This document shows positions 9,870 to 26,211 of a stretch of 42,973 nt of DNA, piece after piece. The position numbers and the translations under genes were made by a program. The stretch is from Kiritimatiellia bacterium (lineage in GTDB: Bacteria; Verrucomicrobiota; Kiritimatiellia; PWTM01). Position 1 is the first letter of the stretch; every line of letters starts with the position of its first letter. The stretch covers positions 1 to 42,973 of the forward strand of contig JAOACR010000001.1 in the NCBI GenBank assembly GCA_026417735.1. The letters run 5' to 3'. The notes beneath the pieces are model-generated. The model was not told where the DNA came from and searched no databases. It saw only the letters and a program-made list of their open reading frames with translations.

Positions 9870-12499
9870 GGCTGCCGTTCGACGGGTGCCGGACCACGCG
9901 CCCGCCGGGTGCGGTAGTCCATTTCCAATATTTGGATCGCCGCGATATCGGCCGGTATCGTGATCGGGCCGTGTGGCTTCATCGCCTCGTCAAGCACCGC
10001 CCGGACCCGCCGCACCGTGGCGACCAGGTCGCGAGCCAGCTCTGGCGGCAGATCACCGGCCACCGACAATGCCGCCCGCGCGTCGAACAGACGACCGCGA
10101 GCCACAAGCAGCGCCGCCCGCCGCACCGCGATCTCCGCACGCAGCAGTGGATCCGCCTCCGCGCCCCCTGCCGATTCTATCGCGGACCACGCACGGCCAT
10201 ACGCCTCGTCCGCTTCGTCCGCACGACCGGCCATCGCGAGGGCACGGGCCCGCTGAAGCCAGATCCGGGCGAGCGCTCGCGCGGAAAGAGCCCCGCCGAA
10301 CGACTCCCCATACGCCGCAAGGGAGTCTGACGACCGCACCGCCTCCTCCAACGCCCCCGCCTCGATCCAGGCGAGAACCTCCTGCGTCCGCGCGCGCACC
10401 CACTCCGAGCGCGACTCCGGCCCGAGTTCCACCAGGACCGCCGCCGCGTTCGACCACGCGACCGCGGCCTCCGCGTAGCGGTGCAGCCGCATGCGCGCAT
10501 CCGCCAGCAACACCCACACGGCGGACAGCGATGGGCGATTCGTCACTGCGGACCGCGCCCACTCCGCCAGCGCGCGCTCCGCGAATTCCGCGGCGCGCGC
10601 CGCATCACCACTGTTCAGGTGCAGCGCAGCAAGATCCGCATGCAGTGTCGCAAGATCCTGAGCGGCAATCTCCGGGCGTGCCGCGGCCATCCGCCAGGCC
10701 TCCTGCGCGTGCTGCAGCGCACGAATGCGGTCGCCACGCTGGTTCCACGCCCAGGAAAGCAGAATCTGCAGGCGTACCCGCTCCACCTCCTCGACCGATG
10801 TCGCAGCCGCCCCCTCGGCCGCCGCCTGCAGACGACGGATCGCCTCATCGGTCTCGCCTCTCTCGAGCAGCGCACTCCCCAGCGACACCACCACCGACAA
10901 CGGCGGTGCTCCACCGCGCCACACTGACCACTCGTCGCAGGCTGTCCGCCACGCATCAATCGCAGCGTCCAGCTGACCTACTGCAAAGCGGGCGTCGCCC
11001 ATCTCCGCGCAGAGAAGCGGCACTTCCGGGCCAGCCTCGACGGCGGCACGGGCTGCCGCGAGTGCCTCTTCCGCCTGCGCGGCCGCGGCGCCGGGATCGC
11101 CGGCCAGCCGCAACGCGCGCACCAGACGACGTCGCGTCCCCGTAACCAGCGCCGTATCCGCCACCCTGCCGGCCGCGGCGGCATCGGCGGCGATTCGATA
11201 CTGCCGCACCGCCTCCACGAAATCCTGTCTGGCCTCCGCCGACATGCCCAGCACGCGCGCCGCGTGAAACCGCGCCACCGCAGCGGAGGCGCCAGACGCG
11301 TCGGTCTCGCGGAGAACCTCCGTCGCCATACGAACGGCGTCGGTGGGATCCTCCTGTTCCCACCGCACCTCCGCCAGCAGTGCCCGCGCCACCAGTGAGC
11401 GGGGCTCCGCACGAAGAATCGCGCGCAGCTTCTGCTCCGCCTCCTCCCGACGTCCTTGCCGCCAGACGGCCGAGGCCGCCACAACGCGGTCCTCTACCTG
11501 CTCCGCGGTCAGGCCCTCCGGCCGGAGAGCCACCGCAAGCTCCGCGAGCCAGTCCGCCACCCGCGACGCACCCTCCTCCCGAGCCACCCGCCAGGCCGTC
11601 GCCCAAACTTCGGCCGAACCTCTGTCTCCCGGAGCATGCCCCACGACCTCGGCGAGCTGCTCCAGAGCCGATCCGAGCTGGCCGAGCGGCGTCAGCTGCA
11701 GCACGTCGCCCTGCGGCCACGTGACCCCCGCAAGCGCATTAGACGGAGAGAGGCTGCACACCGTTCGGCCGGCGCTTTCCAGCTCGCACCGACGGATCGC
11801 GGCGCGCAACCACTCTCCTACACTGCCGCCCGCCGGGCGGGTCCGAATACGTTCCAGTTCCCGTGCCAGCGCGTCGGCCGCGCGTGAGCGCCCGAACCAT
11901 GTCTCGGCGGGACGCTCCGCCGCACCCGCCGACCACAACACCAGCGGCTCCGGAAACGAAAACGCAGACGCCGCCGGTGCCCCCGCCGCGCGGCCGACGC
12001 CAGCCGCGATCTGGATCACGACCACCGAAGCGGCACACGACCCGAGCAGAGAGCTCACGGCGGCAGGCACCGCCTCCGCCTCGTTTTTCCCCTCCAGTCC
12101 CGCCCAAGCTGCCCCACTTTCACCGTCCGTTGCCGGTGCAAGCGGCCCGCTGTAACCCACCACCGCCAGATCGCCCGTCTGAAGGCGCGCGCGCAGACGA
12201 ATCAGGGCTGCCAGCACCAACTCGGCGCGAACGGTTGCGCCGGTGAGCACCGCCAGGTTCGCGCCGCCGGCGCGCGACCATACGGCCGCCAGATGCGCCG
12301 CGTCGGCTGGGCCGTTCGCGTCGCCGGCGCCAATCCAGACCGCCATCGGCACCGGCGTCCGCGCGAAGGTTTCGGACGCTCCGAGCGCCACCGCGAGCAC
12401 CATCACGGCGACCGCGCGCCCGGCCGTCCAAACGATGGACGGCCATCCCGGCGTCCGGTCCCAACCTTGGACACCTCGAATCCGACGCGGCCGCCTCAT
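9866..12499 (-). CDS. Exported TPR-repeat protein with a degenerate caspase-like (C14-type) N-terminal domain
   Basis: 877 residues. An N-terminal hydrophobic stretch AVAVMVLAVALGASETFA (about 30-47) looks like a signal peptide. Residues about 50-290 follow the layout of caspase/metacaspase-type domains: a first strand PMAVWIGAGDAN, helix DAAHLAAVWSRAGGA, LAVLTGATVRAELVLAALIRL, then GDLAVVGYSGPL, ASVVVIQIAAGVGRA, EPLVLWSAGAAERPAE and a GRSRAADALARELE helix. In active enzymes the YSG segment continues HG (catalytic His) and the later strand carries DxC; here these are Pro119 and Ala165/Ala166, so the domain should be inactive. From about residue 320 to 860 are many Ala-rich helical pairs typical of TPRs. 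Four-base overlaps link it to the dihaem propeller gene upstream and the M28 peptidase downstream. The caspase-fold assignment is my inference from pattern; the TPRs are clear. Confidence 0.72.
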   Translation of the reverse strand: MRRPRRIRGVQGWDRTPGWPSIVWTAGRAVAVMVLAVALGASETFARTPVPMAVWIGAGDANGPADAAHLAAVWSRAGGANLAVLTGATVRAELVLAALIRLRARLQTGDLAVVGYSGPLAPATDGESGAAWAGLEGKNEAEAVPAAVSSLLGSCAASVVVIQIAAGVGRAAGAPAASAFSFPEPLVLWSAGAAERPAETWFGRSRAADALARELERIRTRPAGGSVGEWLRAAIRRCELESAGRTVCSLSPSNALAGVTWPQGDVLQLTPLGQLGSALEQLAEVVGHAPGDRGSAEVWATAWRVAREEGASRVADWLAELAVALRPEGLTAEQVEDRVVAASAVWRQGRREEAEQKLRAILRAEPRSLVARALLAEVRWEQEDPTDAVRMATEVLRETDASGASAAVARFHAARVLGMSAEARQDFVEAVRQYRIAADAAAAGRVADTALVTGTRRRLVRALRLAGDPGAAAAQAEEALAAARAAVEAGPEVPLLCAEMGDARFAVGQLDAAIDAWRTACDEWSVWRGGAPPLSVVVSLGSALLERGETDEAIRRLQAAAEGAAATSVEEVERVRLQILLSWAWNQRGDRIRALQHAQEAWRMAAARPEIAAQDLATLHADLAALHLNSGDAARAAEFAERALAEWARSAVTNRPSLSAVWVLLADARMRLHRYAEAAVAWSNAAAVLVELGPESRSEWVRARTQEVLAWIEAGALEEAVRSSDSLAAYGESFGGALSARALARIWLQRARALAMAGRADEADEAYGRAWSAIESAGGAEADPLLRAEIAVRRAALLVARGRLFDARAALSVAGDLPPELARDLVATVRRVRAVLDEAMKPHGPITIPADIAAIQILEMDYRTRRARGPAPVERQP

Positions 12500-15054
12500 C
12501 GCGCGTATTCCGGCCGCCAGCCGAGCCGCGGCGGCACCAGCTCCCCCTGCCGCTGAGCTTCGGGGTCGTGGTAGGCGCCGTAGAACAGGCTGTTACAGTC
12601 CAACCACGTCACGATCCGCTCCCAGTCCTCCGGCGACAGTCGTACGTCGTGGTGTCCGTTGCTGAGCATCCGCGCGAGGTGGGCGGCATCGGCGCCGACT
12701 CGCCCGGGCGTCGAGTACTGTTCCTGTTCGAAGATGATTCCGTTGCCGCCGGCCCGCGACCAGCCAAACGGCGAGAGCGCAGCGTACGCACGGGACCACC
12801 CATGGTGCGCGTGTCGGACGCCGGCGAGCCACTCGGGCGCAGAGACTCGCGCGCCGGGGCCGGTGGCCGGCTCGAACGGTTCTGCGCGCAGATCGGGGCG
12901 GCCGCGCGCACCGGCATGGCATCGAACACAGTGGCGATCGAGCACCGGTTGGACCAGCCGCGGAAACGTCAACGGATAGGAACCCGACGGTCCGGGCCGC
13001 AGCGAGGAAGGGGGCCGGCGCGCAGCCAGAGGTGAGAACTGAACCGGCGGTGCGGCGTGACGCGGCTCGTGGCAACCGGCACAGCTCAGTGTCGCGCCGT
13101 CGTGCGCCCAGGTGCCGGAGCGCATAGTTTGAATCGCACGGCCGCGGCCGTCCAACGCCTGAAAGTAGACCTCTACGCCGGCGGGCATCACAAAGTGCGC
13201 ACTGCCGTCTTCCTCGACCGGGACGGTGCCGAGCACGCCGCGCGCAATACTTTCGGCAGCGGCCCCGATGCGGGGCACATCGAGCCAGGCGGTGTCCTTT
13301 CCGAAGATCTGCACGATCCGCAGCGCGGCGACGCGCCGGCCGGCGGGAAACGGACGGCGGCTCGCATAGACGTTGGCGACCACCACGGTCGCCAGGCCGG
13401 TCGGGCGCGAGGGTGAGTAACCGACCATCGGAGGTGCGCGGCGCGGAATCACCGGCGGGCGTTCCCTCGGTCGCACCGGTATCGGGTCCAGGCACGGGAA
13501 CTCCGGATCGCGATAGAGCACCTCCCGGTTGCCAAAGCTGTCGGCGAGCGTGAGCGCGTAGTGGCGTTGTTCGGGATCCCATACGCAGAGGAAAAAATCC
13601 TCGTCCAACGGCCACGGCTGGCCAAACACCTCCCCTTTCGGTTCGTGTCGCCCGCGGTCATGCGGCACGCCGGGCGCGGACTCGGCCTCCGGAAACAGCA
13701 CCTCCGGCGTCAGCCGGCGCACCTGAGACATGCGGCCGTCGTCGGGCATCGCCGGATCCACCAACACCACCGAACCGTACTGCTCCCCGTGATGGGGTGC
13801 CGCAACCGCAATGAAGGTGCGCCGGCCGGGTACCGCGCGCAGCCCCAGCAGCATCCACGGCCGCATCTCGCGCCGGTCGGTGTAGTTGCCATGCGGTGCG
13901 CGCGGGTCGCTACCGTCGGGATTGCACACCCACATGTGATGCGCCGCGTCGTTGTCCCGGTCTACGTAGTCCCACCGCGTATAGACGATTCGCCCATCGT
14001 GCGCGACGGACGGCTGCCACTCGTTCGTTTCGTGAAAGCTGAGCGGCTCGAGCGCAGAACCGTCGGGCTGCATCGCATACAGCACCGCGGAGGGACACCA
14101 GCGCGCGCCGCAGCGCACATTCGAGCCCACCCGCTCCGAAATGAACGCGATGCGGCCGTCCGGCAGCACGCACGGGTCGTACTCGTTCCACCGCCCGTCG
14201 GTGAGCTGCATGACCGGCCCACCCTCGAGCGACGCGCGGAAGATATGATAGGTGCTCTCCGGCCGCCAGTGGTAGTGGTGATAGCCGGCGGGCCGCAGAC
14301 GACACTCCTCCCACGACCACGGCTGGCCCGCCCACTCCTCCGGCGAGGGCACGCGCGCGTCCGCTTCGGTCCACGCGAAGTAGACGGTGCGCCCGTCGTA
14401 GTCGAGCTCCAGCGAGATGAACGAACCGCCCGCGAGCGGCCGACCGGTAAGCCGGCCGTTTGCGATCGTCGCCCCCTCGAGCGGGCGGCGCACGCGCGGC
14501 GCCGCTCCGAACGGATCCTCGATCACGACCAGCCCCCCGCCACGCGCTGCGTTGAAGCCGAAAAACTGGTCAATCATATGGATTTCGCCGCGTGCTTGCT
14601 TGGAATGCAGCAGTAGCGCGATGCGATCAAAGTTGAGCAGAGGATTGCGGAAGGCGATCCGGCGACGGAGCGCGCGCGCGGCGAGGAAACGCTCGTCGGC
14701 GCCGTCGGCAGGGAGCGGGCCGTTCGCCGCCCGCGCCTCCAGCGCCGCCAGCTCCGCCGCCTCCGCGGAGAGGTCGGGCGCCCCGGGCTGTGCCCGCAGA
14801 TGTGTCAGCAGCGCGCGCGTCCGACGCAGCACCACGTCGAGCGGAGAGCGGTCGGTTGGCTGGATCAACGCGTCGGTGCGGCGCGATTCACGCTCGAGCC
14901 GCTGGCGCACCTCCGTGTCGAATTTCGTTCCGGCGATCTCGCGCGCCAGCCGTTCGAACTCTTTCCGAGCGTCCTCCCCGTGCACGACCCCCGTCGCGCC
15001 AATCGCGGCAGCGACGCATGCGGCGCGCAACAACAGACGGCCGACGCGCTTCAT
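12496..15054 (-). CDS. Hydrazine-synthase-alpha-like exported protein with beta-propeller region and two c-type haem motifs
   Basis: 852 residues with signal peptide (LLLRAACVAAAIGATGVVHG, cleavage about residue 26). A helical region with predicted polar segments (27-160) is followed by a propeller-like part containing WD40/TolB-type strands such as MQLTDGRWNEYDPCVLPDGR, IAFISERVGSN and NEWQPSVAHDGRIVYTRWDY. The C-terminal part has two haem c attachment motifs, CAGCH (658-662) and CVRCH (709-713). This arrangement matches proteins annotated in many PVC genomes as hydrazine synthase alpha-subunit-like, named after the anammox enzyme; true hydrazine synthase activity is not implied, because the other subunits are absent nearby. 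Function is probably periplasmic redox or substrate sensing. It starts the run of overlapping genes, has a promoter just upstream and overlaps the TPR gene by four bases. Confidence 0.82.
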   Translation of the reverse strand: MKRVGRLLLRAACVAAAIGATGVVHGEDARKEFERLAREIAGTKFDTEVRQRLERESRRTDALIQPTDRSPLDVVLRRTRALLTHLRAQPGAPDLSAEAAELAALEARAANGPLPADGADERFLAARALRRRIAFRNPLLNFDRIALLLHSKQARGEIHMIDQFFGFNAARGGGLVVIEDPFGAAPRVRRPLEGATIANGRLTGRPLAGGSFISLELDYDGRTVYFAWTEADARVPSPEEWAGQPWSWEECRLRPAGYHHYHWRPESTYHIFRASLEGGPVMQLTDGRWNEYDPCVLPDGRIAFISERVGSNVRCGARWCPSAVLYAMQPDGSALEPLSFHETNEWQPSVAHDGRIVYTRWDYVDRDNDAAHHMWVCNPDGSDPRAPHGNYTDRREMRPWMLLGLRAVPGRRTFIAVAAPHHGEQYGSVVLVDPAMPDDGRMSQVRRLTPEVLFPEAESAPGVPHDRGRHEPKGEVFGQPWPLDEDFFLCVWDPEQRHYALTLADSFGNREVLYRDPEFPCLDPIPVRPRERPPVIPRRAPPMVGYSPSRPTGLATVVVANVYASRRPFPAGRRVAALRIVQIFGKDTAWLDVPRIGAAAESIARGVLGTVPVEEDGSAHFVMPAGVEVYFQALDGRGRAIQTMRSGTWAHDGATLSCAGCHEPRHAAPPVQFSPLAARRPPSSLRPGPSGSYPLTFPRLVQPVLDRHCVRCHAGARGRPDLRAEPFEPATGPGARVSAPEWLAGVRHAHHGWSRAYAALSPFGWSRAGGNGIIFEQEQYSTPGRVGADAAHLARMLSNGHHDVRLSPEDWERIVTWLDCNSLFYGAYHDPEAQRQGELVPPRLGWRPEYAR

Positions 15055-15186: not shown

Positions 15187-15768
15187 TCAGGGGGTCGCGG
15201 CACTGCCCTCCAAAATCTCGCGGACCTTGCGCTCGATCATCTCGTCCCGCGCGGCCCGCCGTTGCTCCAGCTCGCGTTTGAGTTTCTGCAGCTCTTTTTC
15301 GATGCGGGCCAGCCGATCCCGCCGCTCCGCTTCACGAAGGTCAAACGCGATGGTGACCAGTCGCCGAATCTCGTTCCGAATCGCGGGCCGCTGCTCAGCC
15401 GCGGCCTCCCGATAGACCCGCGCCAGGCTTTCAATGCGGGCGGCGTACTGCTCTGCGGCGCCGCCGGACGCTCCCGTCATCCGATCGGGAAGACCGCGCG
15501 GCCAGTCCGAAAATCGCCGCCGCACTTCCGCCTCGAATGTCGCCGGGGCCTCCGCGCGCAGACGCACCAGCCGCTCGTACTCGGCGGGACGGCGCTCCCG
15601 AACCCACCCGAGCCAGCGTTCGACCCACTGCGCGTCGGGGGTTGCCGCGCAGCTAGATTCGGCCGCCGGCGCCGCGGCGGCGGGCATCGGGTCCGCGGCC
15701 ACCGGAACGCTGAATCCCCCGGCGACGGCGACGACCAGCACCACCGCGAATGATCCGGCGCGACTCAT
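15187..15768 (-). CDS. Exported alpha-helical/coiled-coil protein in the sigma/anti-sigma operon
   Basis: 193 residues, no family recognised with certainty. A signal peptide FAVVLVVAVAGGFSVPVAADP (about 7-27) predicts export. The rest is charged and helical; the C-terminal 60 residues (AERRDRLARIEKELQKLKRE and onwards) form a clear coiled coil with Arg/Glu-rich heptads. Its start overlaps the anti-sigma gene stop by ATGA. Small helical periplasmic proteins of the Spy/CpxP or heavy-metal-sensor (CnrX-like) kind often sit beside ECF sigma/anti-sigma pairs and tune them, so a sensor or chaperone role is possible, but the sequence alone does not prove it. A strong hairpin follows. Confidence 0.75.
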   Translation of the reverse strand: MSRAGSFAVVLVVAVAGGFSVPVAADPMPAAAAPAAESSCAATPDAQWVERWLGWVRERRPAEYERLVRLRAEAPATFEAEVRRRFSDWPRGLPDRMTGASGGAAEQYAARIESLARVYREAAAEQRPAIRNEIRRLVTIAFDLREAERRDRLARIEKELQKLKRELEQRRAARDEMIERKVREILEGSAATP

Positions 15769-16322
15769 GCGTCAGCGGGCGACTCGTTGAAATCTGTTTC
15801 GTCCTCCCTGGCCTGTGCGGGCTCCGGCGGACGCTCCACCGGACGCTGCAGCTCCCGAGCCAGCGCAGCAGCTTCGTCGCTCAGCAGGTCGAGTTGTAAA
15901 TCCATCCACTCATCCAGCGTCCAGACGCTGGTCGGGGGCGCTGCGGTCGACATCGCGGTCGAACCATTCGGCCGAAAGCTGGCGCGGAGCACCGCGGCAG
16001 TGAATCCAACGAGAAACGCGACGACCATCGCCGCCGCGACCGACCACGCCGGATGTGCCAGCCACCGCGCGCGGGTCGCGTGCGCGCTGACCATGCTGCG
16101 GCGGGTGATCTCGGTGAGAATCGTGTCCGCGGTCACCGCCGACACCACCTCCTCCGCGCGCGCCTCGCTGCGGGCGACGGTCTCGACCCGCGACAGCGTG
16201 TCACGATACGCGCGGCAGGAGGCGCACCGCTCCAGATGCGCAGTCAGCGAAGGCCGCCGCACCGGTTCCAGCTCGCCGCTGGAGTCCAGCAGGATGTCGC
16301 GAATCGCCTCGTCGCACTTCAT
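15765..16322 (-). CDS. Zinc-finger anti-sigma factor, single-pass membrane protein
   Basis: 185 residues. The N-terminal part has the zinc-binding anti-sigma (ZAS) signature HLERCASC, His29-xxx-Cys33-xx-Cys36, followed by a helix. A hydrophobic stretch AWSVAAAMVVAFLVGFTAAVL (about residues 92-112) anchors it in the inner membrane, leaving a C-terminal periplasmic part of about 70 residues rich in Glu and Arg. Such proteins hold their cognate ECF sigma factor inactive until an envelope signal arrives. It overlaps the sigma gene by four bases upstream (16319-16322) and the exported helical protein downstream, forming a compact signalling operon. Confidence 0.9.
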   Translation of the reverse strand: MKCDEAIRDILLDSSGELEPVRRPSLTAHLERCASCRAYRDTLSRVETVARSEARAEEVVSAVTADTILTEITRRSMVSAHATRARWLAHPAWSVAAAMVVAFLVGFTAAVLRASFRPNGSTAMSTAAPPTSVWTLDEWMDLQLDLLSDEAAALARELQRPVERPPEPAQAREDETDFNESPADA

Positions 16323-16909
16323 GTCATTCTCCCCCCGAAGGCCTCGTATTCATCTTTCAGCGCCTCGCGCAGCTTCAACACCGCGTAGTGCATCCGCGCC
16401 AGCGCAGTATTCAGTGTGACGCCCTGAATGCGGGCGATCTCCTTGAACGGAACCTCGCCCTCCGTCCGCAGCAGAAACACCTCGCGCTGCTCGGGCGGCA
16501 GTTTCAGGATCGCTGCCCGGATGCGCTCCCCCAGGTCCGCACCCGCCACCCGTGTTGCGGGCCCGATCCCGCTCTCCGGCACGCGCTGCAGCCAGCTGCT
16601 GCGCGCCTGCGTGCTGCTGGCCGCGCTTTCCGCATCCACGAACAGCTTCCGGCGCCGCGCCAGGTCAATGATCAGGTTGTGCGCGATCCGGAAGAGCCAC
16701 CCCAGAAGGTTTTCCTCCCGAAAGGTGTCCAGTTTCCGGATCGCACGGATCCAGACCTCCTGAAAAATCTCGTCCGGATCCACCCGGCCCTCGGTCATCT
16801 TGAGAATGAACGAATAGAGCGGCCGGCGGTAATGCTCGACCAGCTTCCCCAGGGCTTCACGGTCACCCCGGCGATACTCGTCGAGCCACGCGCGTTCCTG
16901 AGCGTCCAT
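16319..16909 (-). CDS. ECF-type RNA polymerase sigma factor
   Basis: 196 residues. Sigma region 2: LDEYRRGDREALGKLVEHYR, FILKMTEGRVDPDEIFQEVW and WLFRIAHNLIIDLARRRK (the -10-recognising part, about residues 20-90). Region 4: RIRAAILKLPPEQREVFLLR and IARIQGVTLNTALARMHYAV with its helix-turn-helix (about 130-180), where VTLNTALARMHYAVLKLRE recognises the -35. ECF factors direct transcription of envelope-stress or metal-response genes. I chose ATG 16909 (MDAQERAWLDEY), which matches the usual N-terminal length; the frame is open to 17305 but those residues look like non-coding translation and cross the divergent gene. It is paired with the anti-sigma gene by a four-base overlap. Confidence 0.93.
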   Translation of the reverse strand: MDAQERAWLDEYRRGDREALGKLVEHYRRPLYSFILKMTEGRVDPDEIFQEVWIRAIRKLDTFREENLLGWLFRIAHNLIIDLARRRKLFVDAESAASSTQARSSWLQRVPESGIGPATRVAGADLGERIRAAILKLPPEQREVFLLRTEGEVPFKEIARIQGVTLNTALARMHYAVLKLREALKDEYEAFGGRMT

Positions 16910-16940
16910 CCGGTCCGTCCAGGGACCGCTCCGAACTACG

Positions 16941-16946
16941 CTTATA
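16941..16946 (-). promoter_or_regulatory. Possible -10 box for the ECF sigma operon
   Basis: TATAAG on the minus strand, 31 bases before the sigma ATG. No good -35 partner is seen; ATATTC lies 17 bases upstream. Weak evidence. Confidence 0.25.
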
Positions 16947-17084
16947 GAACGGAGGATCCCGCTGAATATTGCGCCGCTGCCGGCACAAAAGACTGCCACA
17001 TGCCGCCCCGCCGGCCAACTCGCCGCCCCGCGCCGAGCCCCGACTCCGCCGGCGGGTGGCTGGACCACTGCCTCGGCGGACTGA

Positions 17085-17090
17085 TATAGT
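17085..17090 (+). promoter_or_regulatory. -10 box of the MarR-TolC/RND operon
   Basis: TATAGT lies seven bases before the ATG at 17098, so the transcript would be leaderless. A poor -35 candidate TGGACC (17061-17066) is 18 bases upstream. The box adjoins and slightly overlaps the palindrome at 17089-17109, as expected for a repressor-controlled promoter. Confidence 0.45.
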
Positions 17091-17109
17091 TCACAAAATG
17101 AAACATTTT
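17089..17109. promoter_or_regulatory. Candidate MarR operator overlapping the start codon
   Basis: Two overlapping inverted repeats: GTTCA (17089-17093) with TGAAAC (17099-17104), and AAAATG-AAA-CATTTT (17095-17109, perfect 6-base arms). They cover the start codon of the MarR-TolC gene. The 10-mer ACAAAATGAA (17093-17102) also occurs in the GbsR-type operator at 1772-1781. Autorepression by the MarR domain encoded here is inferred. Confidence 0.5.
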
Positions 17110-18912
17110 TCTCCGCAATCCCCGTCGCGCTCGATCGCGAAGTTCTGCGACGCGCTGGGGCATGTGCTGACGCTGCTCGCCCGCCTCGCGGTGAGCCGCG
17201 AGCGCCATGCGCTCGCGCGCGGCCGGCTGACGATGCCGCAAATGTGCCTGCTGGACCACTGCGCCAGCGTGGGCCCTTGCACGATGGGCGAGATCGCCGC
17301 GGCATTTCGACTTCGGCGTTCCACGCTCACTCAGATCGTGGACCGCCTCGCCGAACGCGGCCTGGTGACGCGGCGCCGCGCAAGCTGCGACCGCCGGCGG
17401 GTGCTGGTCCAAATGACGCCCGCCGGCCGCCGCCTGGTCCGAAGTTTCCGGCTCGAACGACGACGAACCCTGCGTGCGCTGTTCGCGGAGGTGCCGCACG
17501 CGCAGCGGCGTGTCTTCCTCCGGATTCTTGAGCATGCGGCCGACGCGTTCAGCGCCGGTACGCCCCCCCGCGCTGTCGCCAAAGCCCGTCGCGCCACGAC
17601 AGTCGTGTTCGCGCTCGCCGCGGTCACCCGCGCCGGCGAGGTCGCCGCCCTCCGCCGACTCACGCTCGACGACTGTCTGCGCAGCGGACTCGAACGCAGC
17701 GTCGCGGTCGCCAACGCGGAGCGCGACCGCCTCGCCGCCAGCGCGATGATCGCCGAAATGCGGGCACCCCTGCTGCCCGAGCTGCACACGCGCGCGGACT
17801 ACACCCGCCGGAATGAGCTCGACACGCTCGAACTGGATGGCCCGCCGGTGACATTTGGCCGGCTGGATAACTACACCGCCGCCGTCGAGCTGCGGCAGCT
17901 CCTCTACGACGGTGGCAGCGTCGCAGCGGGGCTGAAGGCGGCGCGCGTGTACCGCGACCGCGTAGACCTGGCGTCGGAACGCGTCCGCGAGACGCTCGCA
18001 CGCGACATTCACCTCGCTTTCCACGCCCTCTGGTACCTCGAGGAGGCGGTCCGCGTGCAGACGGCGACGATCGTGCAGCTCGACGAGTTCGCCAATGAAA
18101 TCGAGCACAAGCACCGGGAGGGGGTCGCCTCCGAGTTTGACGCGATGGCGGCCCGCGTGCGCGCCGCGAACGAGCGGCCCACGTTGGCCGCACTCGAGCG
18201 CGAACGGTGCGTCGCCCGTGCTGCGTTCCGCAACCTCGCCCGGCTCGAGACCGATCAGTTCGAACTCGCCGGAGAGGGCGTCATCTCCGAGCGAACCGCG
18301 GACCTCACCGAGCTGGAAACCGCGGTGCGGATCGCCCTGCAGCAACGCCACGAACTGCATGAGCAGCAAAAACTCGTGGAGCTGCGCGCGACGGATCTGC
18401 GTGTTGAACGTGGCGCGTACTCACCCGTGCTGCGGGCCCGCGGCAGCTACGAGGGACGCAACCCCGAGACGTTCATCTCGTCCGAGGACCGCTGGGAGTG
18501 GGACTGGCAGGTGGGTCTGACGGTGGAGTGGAGCCTCTACGACGGCGGTCGGCGCGCCGCGCGTATCCAGCAGAAGGAGCTGGCGCTCGCGTCCGCCCAG
18601 GCCGAACTGGAGGAGCTCCAGCGGCGGATCCGGCTGGAAGTTGAGGAGGCGTGGATGCGGCGCCGTGAGGCGGCGCAGGCGAACGAGGCGGCGGAGCAGA
18701 CGGTGCGGCTGGCGGACCGCAGCGTCGAGATCGCGCATACGCGCGTCCAGACGGGGCTTGCGACCCGCCTCGAGTTCACCGACGCAATGCTCGCGCAGCG
18801 CCGCGCCCGGCTCCAGCTGCTGGGAGCCCGCCGCGATCTGCGCAGCGCGGACGTGCGGCTCGCCTACGCGATCGGCCGGTCGCTGCTGCCCCGTGGGGAG
18901 ACCACTCGATGA
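17098..18912 (+). CDS. In-frame fusion of a MarR regulator domain with a TolC-family outer-membrane efflux protein
   Basis: One uninterrupted frame of 604 residues. Residues 1 to about 155 are a complete MarR domain: helices, then TMGEIAAAFRLRRSTLTQIV (helix-turn-helix), DRLAERGLVTRRR and the wing DRRRVLVQMTPAGRRLV. At about 160-185 comes KARRATTVVFALAAVTRAGE, which resembles a signal peptide, and then LTLDDCLRSGLERS, the classical mature start of TolC-type proteins, followed by two long coiled-coil helical repeats (VGLTVEWSLYDGGRR marks the second half). TolC-type proteins form the outer-membrane exit duct of RND pumps; MarR proteins repress such operons. A cytoplasmic DNA-binding domain ahead of an export signal is topologically odd. 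No ATG lies between the parts; weak GTG codons (17491, 17605) could be internal starts. A seven-C run near 17567 makes a sequencing error or recent gene fusion worth excluding. Confidence 0.8.
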   Translation: MKHFSPQSPSRSIAKFCDALGHVLTLLARLAVSRERHALARGRLTMPQMCLLDHCASVGPCTMGEIAAAFRLRRSTLTQIVDRLAERGLVTRRRASCDRRRVLVQMTPAGRRLVRSFRLERRRTLRALFAEVPHAQRRVFLRILEHAADAFSAGTPPRAVAKARRATTVVFALAAVTRAGEVAALRRLTLDDCLRSGLERSVAVANAERDRLAASAMIAEMRAPLLPELHTRADYTRRNELDTLELDGPPVTFGRLDNYTAAVELRQLLYDGGSVAAGLKAARVYRDRVDLASERVRETLARDIHLAFHALWYLEEAVRVQTATIVQLDEFANEIEHKHREGVASEFDAMAARVRAANERPTLAALERERCVARAAFRNLARLETDQFELAGEGVISERTADLTELETAVRIALQQRHELHEQQKLVELRATDLRVERGAYSPVLRARGSYEGRNPETFISSEDRWEWDWQVGLTVEWSLYDGGRRAARIQQKELALASAQAELEELQRRIRLEVEEAWMRRREAAQANEAAEQTVRLADRSVEIAHTRVQTGLATRLEFTDAMLAQRRARLQLLGARRDLRSADVRLAYAIGRSLLPRGETTR

Positions 18913-20027
18913 AGGAACGTCGGACCGACGAAACCGACGCGGCGGCGCCGGCCGCACGCCGCCATCATCGGCCCTCGGCCTGGTGGATTGCGCTGCTGCT
19001 GGCGGCCATGATCGGCGCGGTCGCGCTGCTGCTGCCGCGGCAGACGGAACCCCGACCCGCAACGCCACCGCGCACCGTGCCGGTCCGCGTCGTGACAGCG
19101 ACCAGCGACGGTGTGCGGGACGTGCTCGATCTGCCTGGCCGGGTCGAGGCGATCTACGCCGCAACGCTCGCCGCGGAGCGCGCTGGGCGCGTCGTCCAGG
19201 TCGCCGTCGAGCGGGGCGATCGCGTCCGCGCCGGTGCTCCGGTGGCGCGCGTTGCCGCCACGCTCTGGGAGGCCCGCCGGGACCAGGCCGCGGTGGAGCT
19301 GCGTGAGGCGGAACGGGATTTGCGACGTCGCGAAGCCCTCGCGGAGAGCGGCGCAATCGCGCCGCACGAGCTCGACGCCGCTCGCGCCCGCGCCGACCGT
19401 GCCCGCGCCGCGTTCGCGGAGGCAGAGGAGTACGTTCGCCAGTGCACGGTCACCGCGCCCAGCGACGGCGAAATCACCGAACGGTTGGTGGAACCCGGCG
19501 AGCACGTCGCCGAGGGACAGGCCGTCGCGCGGCTGGTGGACGTCTCGAATGTGCGGATCGTCGTGGAGGTGCCGGAACAGCGGGTGGACGAGGTGACGCC
19601 GGGCACGCCGGTGAGGGTGGTGGTCGGCGATCCCCCCCTGCTCGTCCGCACCGGCCAGATCGCGGCGGTCGCTGCGGAGGCGGACCCGCGCAGCCGAACG
19701 TTCCGGGCGGAGATACGACTCGACAACCGCGAGCGCCGGCTGCGCGCGGGCCAGATCGTCCGCGTGGAAGTGGACCGCCCCATGCCGGCCGGCTGGGTCG
19801 CCGTCCCGCTGCCGGCGGTGATTCCGCGCCGCGGCGAGCACGTGGTGTTCGTCGCCACAGGGGGCCACGCGGAACGCCGCCGCGTGGAGCTGGAGCGAAT
19901 TGCGGGCGGTTTCGCGCTCTTGTCCGCGGGTGTTGTGGCAGGGGAAAGCGTGGTCATTGAGGGGCAGCGCGACCTCGCGGACGGCACCGCGGTCGAGATT
20001 GTGGCGGAGGGAACGCCGCCGCCATGA
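18909..20027 (+). CDS. RND efflux periplasmic adaptor (membrane fusion protein, HlyD/AcrA family)
   Basis: 372 residues. An N-terminal membrane anchor (WWIALLLAAMIGAVALLLP, about 25-43) is followed by a beta-barrel/lipoyl arrangement: PVRVVTATSDGVRDVLDLPG, lipoyl half AERAGRVVQVAVERGDRVRAG, a short helical hairpin (about 122-178), second lipoyl half TVTAPSDGEITERLVEPGEHVAEGQ, barrel VEVPEQRVDEVTPGTPVRVV and the membrane-proximal domain. It links the inner-membrane pump to the outer-membrane duct. The start ATG overlaps the stop of the MarR-TolC gene (18909-18912) and its end overlaps the pump gene (20024-20027), each by ATGA. The whole set is a complete tripartite efflux operon. Confidence 0.95.
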   Translation: MKERRTDETDAAAPAARRHHRPSAWWIALLLAAMIGAVALLLPRQTEPRPATPPRTVPVRVVTATSDGVRDVLDLPGRVEAIYAATLAAERAGRVVQVAVERGDRVRAGAPVARVAATLWEARRDQAAVELREAERDLRRREALAESGAIAPHELDAARARADRARAAFAEAEEYVRQCTVTAPSDGEITERLVEPGEHVAEGQAVARLVDVSNVRIVVEVPEQRVDEVTPGTPVRVVVGDPPLLVRTGQIAAVAAEADPRSRTFRAEIRLDNRERRLRAGQIVRVEVDRPMPAGWVAVPLPAVIPRRGEHVVFVATGGHAERRRVELERIAGGFALLSAGVVAGESVVIEGQRDLADGTAVEIVAEGTPPP

Positions 20028-23000
20028 TCCTGACCGATCTTGCGATCCGCTTCCGGGTAGCAGTCGTCGCGCTCGCAGTGGTGGCGGCGGGCGCCGGTGT
20101 GGTCGCCTACCTCGAGCTGCCCCGGGAGGGCCCCCCGGACATCACAATTCCGCACGTGTTCATCACCGCGACGTACGACGGCACCTCGCCCGAGGACATC
20201 GAACGGCTGATCGCGGTCCCGCTTGAAAAACGGCTGAACGGCGTGGACGGCGTTCGCACGATCCGTTCCACCTGCAGCGAGAACGTTTGTCTGTTCGACG
20301 TCGAGTTCCGCGCCGGCGACGACATCGAGACCGCGCGCCGCCGCGTGAAGGATAAGGTCGATCTTGCCCGGCCGGACCTCCCGCCCGATCTGGACGAGCC
20401 GATCATCGAGGCGCTGAACTTCAGCACCGACACGCCGGTGCTGACGCTCGCATTGTCGTCGCCGGCTGGCGCGGAGCGATTGCGCCACACCGCCGAGCTG
20501 CTGGAGGACCACCTCGAGCGGGTGCCGGGCGTGCGCGACGCGGCGGTCGCCGGCCTGCCCCGGCGCGAGCTCCGCGTGATCCCGGACCCTGCGCGGCTGG
20601 CCGCCTACGGCGTGCCGCTCGCGGTGCTGCTGCGACGACTGCAGGAGGAAAACGCGACCGTCACCGCGGGTCACCTCGACCTCGGCCGCGCAAAGTTTCA
20701 GGTCCGCGTGCCCGGCGAGTTCGACCGGGCCGCGGAACTGCGGCGCGTGGTGCTCGACGCACCGAACGGCCGGCCCATTTATCTCGGGGACGTTGCGGAC
20801 GTCGAGGACACCACGAAGGACGCCGACTCCATCTCGCGGCTCGATGGTTCGCCGTGCGTGGCGATCTCGGTGACGAAACGGGCCGGCGAAAACACCGTCG
20901 CGCTGATCCGCCGGCTGCGGGACGCGCTGCAGCGCTTCCCCCTGCCCGCGGACATTCGGCTCACGATCGTGATGGACCAGTCGCGCGATATCGCGCGCAT
21001 GCTCAGCGAGCTCGAAAACAACATCGCCACCGGATTCCTGCTGGTGGTCGCGGTGCTGCTCGCCGCGATGGGCTTGCGCAACGCGGTACTGGTCGGCCTG
21101 GCGATTCCGATGTCCATGCTGCTGACCTTTGTCGCACTGCGCGCGGCGGGGCTGACGCTGAACATGATGGTGCTGTTCAGCCTGGTGCTGGTGGTCGGCA
21201 TGCTGGTGGACAATGCCATTGTGATCGTCGAGAACATCTACCGGCTTCGCACACAGGGGCTGACCCGGCACGAGTCCGCGCGGCGCGGCGCTTCGGAAGT
21301 GGCCTGGCCGGTGATCACCTCGACCCTGACCACGGTGCTCGCGTTCGTGCCGTTGCTGTTCTGGCCCGACGTGATGGGCCAGTTCATGGGGTTTCTGCCG
21401 CGCACGGTGATGCTGGCGCTGGGTTGCTCGCTCTTCGTCGGACTGATTGTGAACCCCGCGATCGCCTCGTTCGTGATACACGTCCGCCCGCGCCACCGCC
21501 GCGCGCAGCCGCATCCGTTCCTGCGTGGGTACGAGGCGATGCTGCGCGCGCTGCTACGCCGCCCCGGCGCCTCGGTGGTGTGCGGACTGCTGTTCCTGCT
21601 GCTGTCGCTGGTGACGTACATGCGGCTCGATCGCGGCGTCGAGCTGTTCCCCCTGGTTGAGCCGCGCAACGCGCAGGTGTACATCCGGTTCCCGCAGGGA
21701 ACCGCGATCGGACGCACCGACGAAGCGGCGCGCCAAATCGAGGCGCTCACCCCGGACGACGACGTCCGCTTCGTGCTAACCACCGTCGGCCAGGCGGCGG
21801 GCGCGGACGCGCTCTTCGGCCTCGGCACCGGCGGCCCGCACCTCGCCCGCCTCCACATTGAGTTTCGCGACATGGAGGAGCGCCGCGGCAGCACGAGCGC
21901 CTACATTCGCCGTCTCCGCGAGGCGCTGCCGCGCCTGCCGGGCGCCGACATCGTCATCCAGCGCGAGCAAATGGGCCCGCCGACCGGTGCGCCGGTCGAG
22001 ATCGAGATCGCCGGCGACGATTTCGACACCCTCCGGAGGGCAGCCGAGCAGGTACGCGGCGCGATCGCAGACGTCCCTGGCCTGGTAGACCTCCGCGATG
22101 ACCTCGAAGACGCGCTGCCGGAGATCCGCTTTCGAGTGGATCGGGACCGCGCGGCGCTGCTGGGCGCCGACACGCGCGGGATCGGCCAGTTCCTGCGGAT
22201 GTCGCTGTTTGGGGTCGAGGCCGGCCGCTTTCGCGGCGAGCGCGAGGAATACGACATCACTGTGCGCTGGCCGGCGGCGGGCCGCAACTCGTTTGAGTGG
22301 CTCGACCGGTTGCGTCTGCCCGCCGGTGCGGGCGTCAGCGTGCCGGTCAGCTCGCTCGGCCGTTTTGAATACGGAGCGGGGTTTGGCGTGATCCATCGGA
22401 AAGACCAGCGCCGCACCGTCACGATCAGCGGCAATGACGCGGGACGGGGCGTTGATCGCCTGCTGGCGGACGTCCGCTCCCGCGTTGGCGCGCTCGCGCT
22501 GCCGGCCGGCGTCGCGGTGAGCTTTACCGGCGAAAACAAGGAGATGCGGGAGTCGGGCCGGTTTCTCGCACGCGCGTTCGTGCTGGCGAGCGCCGCGATC
22601 TTCGTCGTGCTCGTGGTTCAGTTCAACTCGCTGTTGCTGCCGGCGGTGATTCTCTCAAGCGTAGTGCTCTCGCTGGTCGGTGTGATGTGGGGGCTGATTC
22701 TCACCCGGATGCGCTTTGGGATCATCATGACCGGCCTCGGTGTGATCACGCTGGCCGGTGTGGTCGTGAACAACGCGATCGTGTTGGTGGACTGCATCCA
22801 GCAGCTGCGCGCAGCGGGAATGCCATGCCTGGAGGCGATTCTCACCGCGGGCACGCGGCGGTTTCGACCGGTGCTGTTGACCGCGGTGACGACGATCCTC
22901 GGTTTGATCCCGATGGCGATGGGCTGGAGTCTCGAGATCCATCAGTGGCCATGGCGAATTGTTGCCGGTGCCGAATCGAGCGCCTGGTGGGCCCCGATGG

Positions 23001-23125
23001 CAGTCGCGGTGATCTTCGGGCTTGCGGTTGCAACAATCCTCACGCTCGGATTGGTACCCGCAATGTATCTGCTGGTCGCCAGCGCGGTGGACTGGGCAAA
23101 GCGGCGCTGGTCGCCGGAGCCCTGA
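20024..23125 (+). CDS. RND efflux pump, inner-membrane permease (AcrB/SwrC-like)
   Basis: 1033 residues, standard size for the hydrophobe/amphiphile efflux RND group: twelve predicted membrane helices in two repeats separated by large periplasmic loops. N-terminus LAIRFRVAVVALAVVAAGAG, then ELPREGPPDITIPHVFITATYDGTSPEDIE (porter domain start). In helix 4 the motif VVGMLVDNAIVIVENIYR places Asp396-Asn397 where AcrB has Asp-Asp; in helix 10 GVVVNNAIVLVD has Asn916 where AcrB has Lys. This D-N/N-N pattern is typical of the SwrC-like subgroup and suggests a different proton-relay arrangement. Substrate unknown (drugs, lipids or metabolites). It starts by overlapping the adaptor gene. Confidence 0.96.
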   Translation: MILTDLAIRFRVAVVALAVVAAGAGVVAYLELPREGPPDITIPHVFITATYDGTSPEDIERLIAVPLEKRLNGVDGVRTIRSTCSENVCLFDVEFRAGDDIETARRRVKDKVDLARPDLPPDLDEPIIEALNFSTDTPVLTLALSSPAGAERLRHTAELLEDHLERVPGVRDAAVAGLPRRELRVIPDPARLAAYGVPLAVLLRRLQEENATVTAGHLDLGRAKFQVRVPGEFDRAAELRRVVLDAPNGRPIYLGDVADVEDTTKDADSISRLDGSPCVAISVTKRAGENTVALIRRLRDALQRFPLPADIRLTIVMDQSRDIARMLSELENNIATGFLLVVAVLLAAMGLRNAVLVGLAIPMSMLLTFVALRAAGLTLNMMVLFSLVLVVGMLVDNAIVIVENIYRLRTQGLTRHESARRGASEVAWPVITSTLTTVLAFVPLLFWPDVMGQFMGFLPRTVMLALGCSLFVGLIVNPAIASFVIHVRPRHRRAQPHPFLRGYEAMLRALLRRPGASVVCGLLFLLLSLVTYMRLDRGVELFPLVEPRNAQVYIRFPQGTAIGRTDEAARQIEALTPDDDVRFVLTTVGQAAGADALFGLGTGGPHLARLHIEFRDMEERRGSTSAYIRRLREALPRLPGADIVIQREQMGPPTGAPVEIEIAGDDFDTLRRAAEQVRGAIADVPGLVDLRDDLEDALPEIRFRVDRDRAALLGADTRGIGQFLRMSLFGVEAGRFRGEREEYDITVRWPAAGRNSFEWLDRLRLPAGAGVSVPVSSLGRFEYGAGFGVIHRKDQRRTVTISGNDAGRGVDRLLADVRSRVGALALPAGVAVSFTGENKEMRESGRFLARAFVLASAAIFVVLVVQFNSLLLPAVILSSVVLSLVGVMWGLILTRMRFGIIMTGLGVITLAGVVVNNAIVLVDCIQQLRAAGMPCLEAILTAGTRRFRPVLLTAVTTILGLIPMAMGWSLEIHQWPWRIVAGAESSAWWAPMAVAVIFGLAVATILTLGLVPAMYLLVASAVDWAKRRWSPEP

Positions 23126-25172: not shown

Positions 25173-25199
25173 TGCGATTGCGCAGCACGGCCCCATATT
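25172..25199 (+). promoter_or_regulatory. Sigma70-type promoter for the permease gene
   Basis: TTGCGA (25172-25177) and CATATT (25194-25199) with a 16-base spacer. The -10 box ends seven bases before the GTG at 25207, giving a leaderless transcript. This supports GTG 25207 rather than TTG 25198 as start. Confidence 0.45.
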
Positions 25200-25206
25200 G
25201 AATCTT

Positions 25207-26211
25207 GTGATCTCGCTGCTCCACCTCCTGCAGCGGTGGGTCGTTGCGACGTGGGATGTCACTGCGCAAATGGCCCCGTATCTGCTGTTCGGTTTTGGTG
25301 TGGCTGGGCTGCTGCACGTGTTGCTGCCGACGTCGTGGGTTGCCCGCCATCTGGGCGGTGACGGATGGCGGGCGGTTGCAAAAGCGTCGTTGATCGGCGT
25401 TCCGCTGCCGCTGTGCTCGTGCGGGGTGGTGCCGGTGGCGCTCTCGCTACGGCGGCAGGGCGCATCGCGAGGTGCCGTTGCGGCGTTCCTGATGTCCACG
25501 CCGCAGACCGGCGCCGACAGCATCCTGGTCACATGGGGGCTGCTGGGTCCGGTGATCGCGGTGGTGCGGCCGATCGCCGCGTTTCTGTCCGGGCTGCTCG
25601 TTGGCTTTGCAGTGGGTTGCGGGCCGGCGGGGAACGGGGTCGCGGCGGAGGCGGCCGAGGCCGGCGGAGTGGCCGCGGTGCCGCGGCCCCGGTGGCAGCG
25701 TGCGCTGCGGCACGGTTTCGTCACGCTGCCCGCGGATATCGGCCGCGAGCTGTTGGCGGGACTGGCGATCGCCGGCCTGCTGGGCGCGATCGTTCCATCC
25801 AACCTGTTCGCCGATCGCATCCCGGCCGGCTGGCCCGCTATGCTGCTGATGCTGGCCGTCGGCATCCCGATCTATGTCTGCTCCACGGCATCGGTCCCGA
25901 TCGCGCTGGGACTGATCCGCGCAGGCATTTCACCGGGCGCAGCGATGGTGTTCCTGATCACCGGGCCCGCGACGAACGCCGCGACGCTCACCGCGCTCGG
26001 CCGGATTCTTGGGGGCCGGTCCACCGCGGTGTACCTGGGATGCCTCGCGCTCACCGCGCTGCTGACCGGTGCGGTGTTGGACGTTTGGGTGCTGCCCGCT
26101 TTTCCGGAGGCCGCGCCGCTCTGCCATACCCCCGAGATCTCGGCTGCACAGCACGGTGCGGCCGCGGTGCTGCTGGGACTGCTCACCGCGAATTGGCGCC
26201 GCCGCAAATAG
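25207..26211 (+). CDS. ArsP/YraQ-family (UPF0718) permease, SO_0444-type metal or metalloid efflux transporter
   Basis: 334 residues with about eight to ten membrane helices in two halves. Each half has the repeated hallmark of the family: GVPLPLCSCGVVPVALSLRR with Cys70 and Cys72, and later AVGIPIYVCSTASVPIALGL with a single Cys. The following loops SRGAVAAFLMSTPQTGADSI and SPGAAMVFLITGPATNAATL are the paired substrate-site motifs. Family members export organoarsenicals or are annotated as Cu/Zn efflux permeases; the ion cannot be told here. The GTG start at 25207 is preferred because it sits seven bases after a -10 box; TTG 25198 would add three residues. It converges on ftsZ with only 13 bases between the stop codons. 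Confidence 0.87.
   Translation: MISLLHLLQRWVVATWDVTAQMAPYLLFGFGVAGLLHVLLPTSWVARHLGGDGWRAVAKASLIGVPLPLCSCGVVPVALSLRRQGASRGAVAAFLMSTPQTGADSILVTWGLLGPVIAVVRPIAAFLSGLLVGFAVGCGPAGNGVAAEAAEAGGVAAVPRPRWQRALRHGFVTLPADIGRELLAGLAIAGLLGAIVPSNLFADRIPAGWPAMLLMLAVGIPIYVCSTASVPIALGLIRAGISPGAAMVFLITGPATNAATLTALGRILGGRSTAVYLGCLALTALLTGAVLDVWVLPAFPEAAPLCHTPEISAAQHGAAAVLLGLLTANWRRRK

Follow-up and report, generated by a model that had tools for sequence, protein, structure and literature searches.

A MarR-type repressor joined in frame to a TolC-family outer-membrane factor at the head of RND efflux operons in Kiritimatiellia

MarR-type autorepressors of the MexR type, known from the mexAB-oprM system, combine a MarR fold with a palindromic site in their own promoter and with adjacent RND pump genes. 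Known regulators of this kind are soluble proteins in their own right, and MexR itself is encoded by a divergent separate gene (PMC8277102). The outer-membrane factors of RND pumps, such as TolC and OprM, are built from OEP repeats with a TolC fold, share an operon with the periplasmic adaptor (MFP) and the RND permease, and begin with a signal peptide, a trait which is usual for this group but not strictly defining. DNA-binding proteins associated with the inner membrane are represented by ToxR, CadC and TcpP, and also by HigX of Caulobacter, a membrane-bound regulator (PMC13384398); ToxR-type proteins continue after the DNA-binding part with a hydrophobic segment and a periplasmic domain. 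Overlapping gene pairs coupled by termination-reinitiation are known as well (PMC6728339, PMC10666635), and homologs of overlapping pairs are sometimes found fused in other genomes (PMC3711429).

The window studied here, a stretch of 42,973 nucleotides from a Kiritimatiellia bacterium (G000), carries on its plus strand a single unbroken frame at 17098-18912 (ATG 17098 to TGA 18910-18912), which is a genuine single gene. The original prediction, an in-frame fusion of MarR and TolC as the first gene of an RND operon with a signal-peptide-like segment at the junction, is borne out in these three points: the one frame of 604 codons contains both Pfam domains, it runs from a full MarR domain through a segment resembling a signal peptide into a complete TolC-family protein, and the genes for an RND periplasmic adaptor and then an RND permease lie 3' of it. 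The MarR domain (residues 1-150, 17098-17547, + strand) includes a winged helix (residues 44-101, 17227-17400) recognized by the profiles MarR_2 (residues 44-101, E 2.7e-14) and MarR (residues 44-102, E 9.6e-13). It is followed by a variable linker (residues 151-160, 17548-17577), which holds a run of seven C at 17563-17569, by the internal signal-peptide-like segment (residues 161-180, 17578-17637) and by the mature TolC-family outer-membrane factor (17638-18912 including the stop codon), where Pfam finds two OEP copies (E 1.2e-48, the best at residues 406-593). The start of the MFP gene (18909-20027, +; NCBIfam TIGR01730, E 5.4e-63; Pfam HlyD_D23) overlaps the stop of the fused gene by 4 nt, and the permease gene occupies 20024-23125 (+; Pfam ACR_tran, E 1.3e-196).

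The AlphaFold model of the fused protein (mean pLDDT 79) comprises a complete MarR fold and a TolC fold. The MarR part consists of helices at residues 9-34, 46-58, 63-70, 74-86, 108-128 and 134-152 with wing strands at 90-106, so that both the Pfam matches, which are above cut-off, and the predicted structure place a winged helix-turn-helix of the MarR type between dimerisation helices. Among the structural matches in the PDB are MarR-family chains (E about 1e-4) such as BpsR (E 1.1e-4) and Rv0880. For the second half, two OEP repeats with a TolC fold and the neighbouring genes for MFP and RND permease agree with a TolC-type outer-membrane factor, and Foldseek matches E. coli TolC with E values of 1.1e-18 (9a2x) and 1.4e-17 (1ek9). 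The junction is modelled with a confidence below 50, including a low-confidence helix at 158-176.

The fused protein shares the MarR fold, the pump genes next to it and a candidate palindromic operator with the MexR type, and the OEP repeats, fold and operon context with TolC and OprM; it differs from the latter in that about 160 presumably cytoplasmic residues come before the signal-like segment, which is therefore not at the extreme N terminus. With the membrane-bound regulators it would have in common an association of a DNA-binding protein with the inner membrane, and with the ToxR type the order of the parts, but here the periplasmic part is the duct of a pump and the hydrophobic segment looks cleavable.

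Residues 161-180 of the window protein read AKARR, then ATTVVFALAAV, then TRAG. The hydrophobic part is the most hydrophobic 11-mer of the whole protein and is preceded by a net charge of +4, and the segment can be aligned with the signal peptide of TolC from G006, where tolC is a separate gene. In all eleven fused proteins identified the most hydrophobic stretch of 11 residues separates MarR from TolC and usually follows basic residues, and most members of one family, f32, have an AxA-type site after the hydrophobic core, ending in AQ, AE or GQ (e.g. SAPAQ, IAHAQ, CARAQ).

Among the 346 genomes searched in the window's class, 11 have a full-length in-frame fusion, the window genome included, and the genes for MFP and RND permease lie 3' of the fused gene in 11/11 loci. 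A scan of genome contigs gave a congener of the window genome (G001, contig CALLFZ010000010.1, a metagenome-assembled genome) as the only match. It has an equally unbroken fusion with 72% identity, and in two other genomes of this genus (G002, G003) no close match was found. Nine more fused genomes, all without a stop, belong to two other families and show about 28-41% identity to the window protein (41% in G076; about 29-32% in G106, G108, G114, G115, G122, G130, G132 and G133). When 388 genomes sampled from the phylum were searched, the matches listed included no fusion outside the class. That no MarR-TolC fusion had been described agrees with our searches, which covered open-access papers and few subscription ones and yielded no earlier case of a repressor joined to an outer-membrane duct.

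Could the fusion be a frame error of sequencing or assembly which joins two ordinary genes? The window comes from a draft assembly of 24 contigs and the seven-C run lies at the junction, where a frame error had been suspected to matter. This explanation did not hold up: the run is irrelevant because the congener, which has no such run at its junction, is fused just as completely. The fusion also recurs in eleven separate genome assemblies from three families, and the frames remain aligned across the junction. The accompanying statement that no stop occurs soon after the run in an alternative frame needs correcting, as the next stops come after 60 codons (17747) and 82 codons (17814). From the density of out-of-frame stops, the chance of an open frame of TolC length is 7e-9 to 2e-4 in the less GC-rich f32 and G076; for the two GC-rich congeners it is 9e-4 and 1.5e-2, a weaker argument if taken alone. 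Related genomes had also been named as the place to look for a stop codon or frameshift at the junction. The congener shows neither and is fused as well, whereas in the nearest outside relative marR and tolC are two overlapping genes; on these grounds we regard the fusion as real and derived. As a general explanation frame error is refuted, and even for a single locus we consider it extremely improbable.

Trees were calculated for TolC (49 rows) and MarR (23 rows), and in both the fused genes form three clades. Each of these has an unfused neighbour with separate, overlapping marR and tolC genes, namely G006 for the window genus, G079 for G076 and G137 for family f32. Stop and start codons of separate pairs overlap as ATGA in G006, G078 and G102, as GTGA in G079 and by 11 nt in G137, which would be a natural starting point for a fusion; in contrast to coupled overlapping pairs, the two products fused here belong to different cell compartments. 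Constraining all fused TolCs to one clade was rejected by the AU test (p-AU 0.00046), and a single ancient fusion is thus rejected by both trees and by this test. Since three clades each stand beside an unfused pair and the constraint is rejected, sequence comparison indicates that fusion of overlapping marR-tolC neighbours probably happened on three occasions. Trees alone cannot separate fusion from splitting, but the simplest reading would be that small indels at the overlap joined the two genes each time. A later loss within f32 is seen in G118, a relic of a fused gene in which the MarR region is partly deleted and the operator decayed while TolC, MFP and RND are intact. This relic (L086, 2330-2760) retains TolC from an internal ATG and represents a natural experiment on an internal start.

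Both halves are under purifying selection, judging from pN/pS values over five pairs of 0.27-0.46 for MarR and 0.29-0.41 for TolC, and the MarR part appears to be still functional. The junction, with values of 0.46-0.99, is freer than both halves; between G000 and G001 pN/pS is about 1 here.

At the start of the fused gene lies the candidate palindromic operator TTCACAAAATGAA (17090-17102, +), which overlaps the start codon and belongs to a TTCR-N5-YGAA pattern conserved at marR starts. The pattern is present at 13 of 18 fused or separate marR starts, against 0.21 expected from resampled sequence, figures which serve as a guide and not as a probability because the pattern was defined after inspecting these related sequences. 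It is found at the identical position -8, overlapping the start codon, in G000, G001, G006, G043 and G102; most f32 members and the unfused sister G137 have it at -22. G114 shows paired changes in both arms (GGTTCGT/ACGAACC), G076, G079 and G029 are without the pattern, and the 43-kb window contains it three times. In f32 (L070-L077) a long palindrome, e.g. AATAGTTCGTGATACGAACTATT, ends some 5 nt short of the start codon of the fused gene and is common to the unfused G137. A -10-like hexamer, TATAGT, is read at 17085-17090 (+), 7 nt before the ATG; the congener has TATATT in this place and G006 again TATAGT. The position of the hexamer suggests an mRNA that is leaderless or nearly so.

Upstream of the fusion a gene for an ECF-type sigma factor (16322-17305, - strand; Sigma70_r2/r4) is encoded divergently. 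Two further minus-strand ORFs come after it (15765-16322 and 15187-15768), neither of which has a Pfam match at 1e-5; the first looks like an anti-sigma factor by eye. The window also encodes a protein of 852 aa (12496-15054, -) with a match to the middle domain of hydrazine synthase alpha (PF18582, E 2.4e-19) and CxxCH cytochrome-like motifs, and an ArsP_1-type permease (25198-26211, +; PF03773, E 5.8e-36).

As a whole, the explanation we favour, with somewhat better than even confidence, is an overlap-derived fusion with an autorepressing MarR part and an internal signal peptide that is cut by signal peptidase I. An overlapping marR-tolC pair heading an RND efflux operon would have lost the marR stop, probably when a few nucleotides were inserted or deleted where stop and start overlap. 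Transcription would begin at the marR ATG, giving an mRNA with little or no leader and from it a single chain, whose MarR part would fold in the cytoplasm, dimerise and bind the TTCR-N5-YGAA site to repress its own promoter. The former TolC signal peptide, now internal, would direct the rest of the chain to Sec, and after the cut by signal peptidase I TolC would proceed to the outer membrane and a MarR stub would remain at the inner membrane, on its cytoplasmic side. Such a cut would probably explain how a DNA-binding domain can stand in front of an export signal, which at first sight is paradoxical. A separation of the two parts is also favoured by their oligomeric states, since functional TolC is a trimer at the outer membrane whereas MarR acts on DNA as a dimer. 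A folded MarR dimer ahead of the signal peptide may, on the other hand, slow or block export, which would count against the cleavage model.

Ribosomes might instead make two products, by starting also within the C-terminal helix of MarR to give an ordinary secreted TolC, with the full chain acting as the repressor and delivering perhaps little or no TolC. Taken over all fused genes this is possible though doubtful, yet in family f32 it is a strong rival. All fused f32 genes carry an ATG as codon 136 or 137. The predicted cleavage site lies 27-29 codons further on, so that a start at this ATG would give a signal peptide of 27-29 residues; only 3 of 15 other MarR sequences examined have a methionine at one or the other of these positions, G076 has an ATG at codon 146, and in the relic G118, which lost MarR and operator but keeps TolC, the f32 ATG is the only start in its open stretch. 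As it is present in every member and kept in the relic, internal initiation may contribute in f32, even though most of these ATGs also lack a Shine-Dalgarno sequence and a methionine is found there in the separate MarRs of G079 and G137 too. The two congeners have no such ATG. The internal starts originally proposed, GTG 17491 (codon 132) and GTG 17605 (codon 170), find no support in the window genus, as neither has a Shine-Dalgarno sequence at a usable distance and the resulting signal peptides would be poor or missing: GTG 17605 would fall inside the hydrophobic core with no positive charges, and ATG 167 of G001 likewise begins inside the core. Since the ancestral tolC start codon is gone in G000 and G001 and no good internal start replaces it, translation of TolC in this genus very probably depends on the marR start.

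If the hydrophobic segment stayed uncut, the protein could be a membrane-bound regulator whose periplasmic TolC domain reports pump assembly, and ToxR and CadC indeed have the same succession of parts, in which a single hydrophobic segment connects the DNA-binding to the periplasmic domain. We consider this unlikely, as in most members a short hydrophobic core is followed by AxA-type sites like in a cleavable signal peptide, and a TolC trimer and a MarR dimer are ill-suited to one uncut chain. MarR could also be a dead leader in a decaying fusion, retained only as the carrier of the TolC start codon. The decayed MarR and operator next to an intact TolC in G118 and the nearly free evolution of the junction point in this direction, but the MarR pN/pS values among diverged fused species and a palindrome that is kept, including by the paired changes in G114, make it very unlikely.

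Under the favoured cleavage model a further step, which we put forward tentatively and hold to be rather doubtful, would be that each exported duct yields one MarR repressor tethered to the inner membrane. The operon would then count or sense its own export, and this would have evolved three times; if true, Sec export would be linked to transcription by a stoichiometric feedback. Exported proteins normally have the signal first, and an outer-membrane protein that starts with a transcription factor departs from this rule. The probable three origins from the same overlapping pair, with both halves selected, suggest that the arrangement is workable and perhaps useful, and these bacteria offer a natural system in which to study how a signal peptide is used when a folded domain precedes it, as well as possible feedback from export to transcription.
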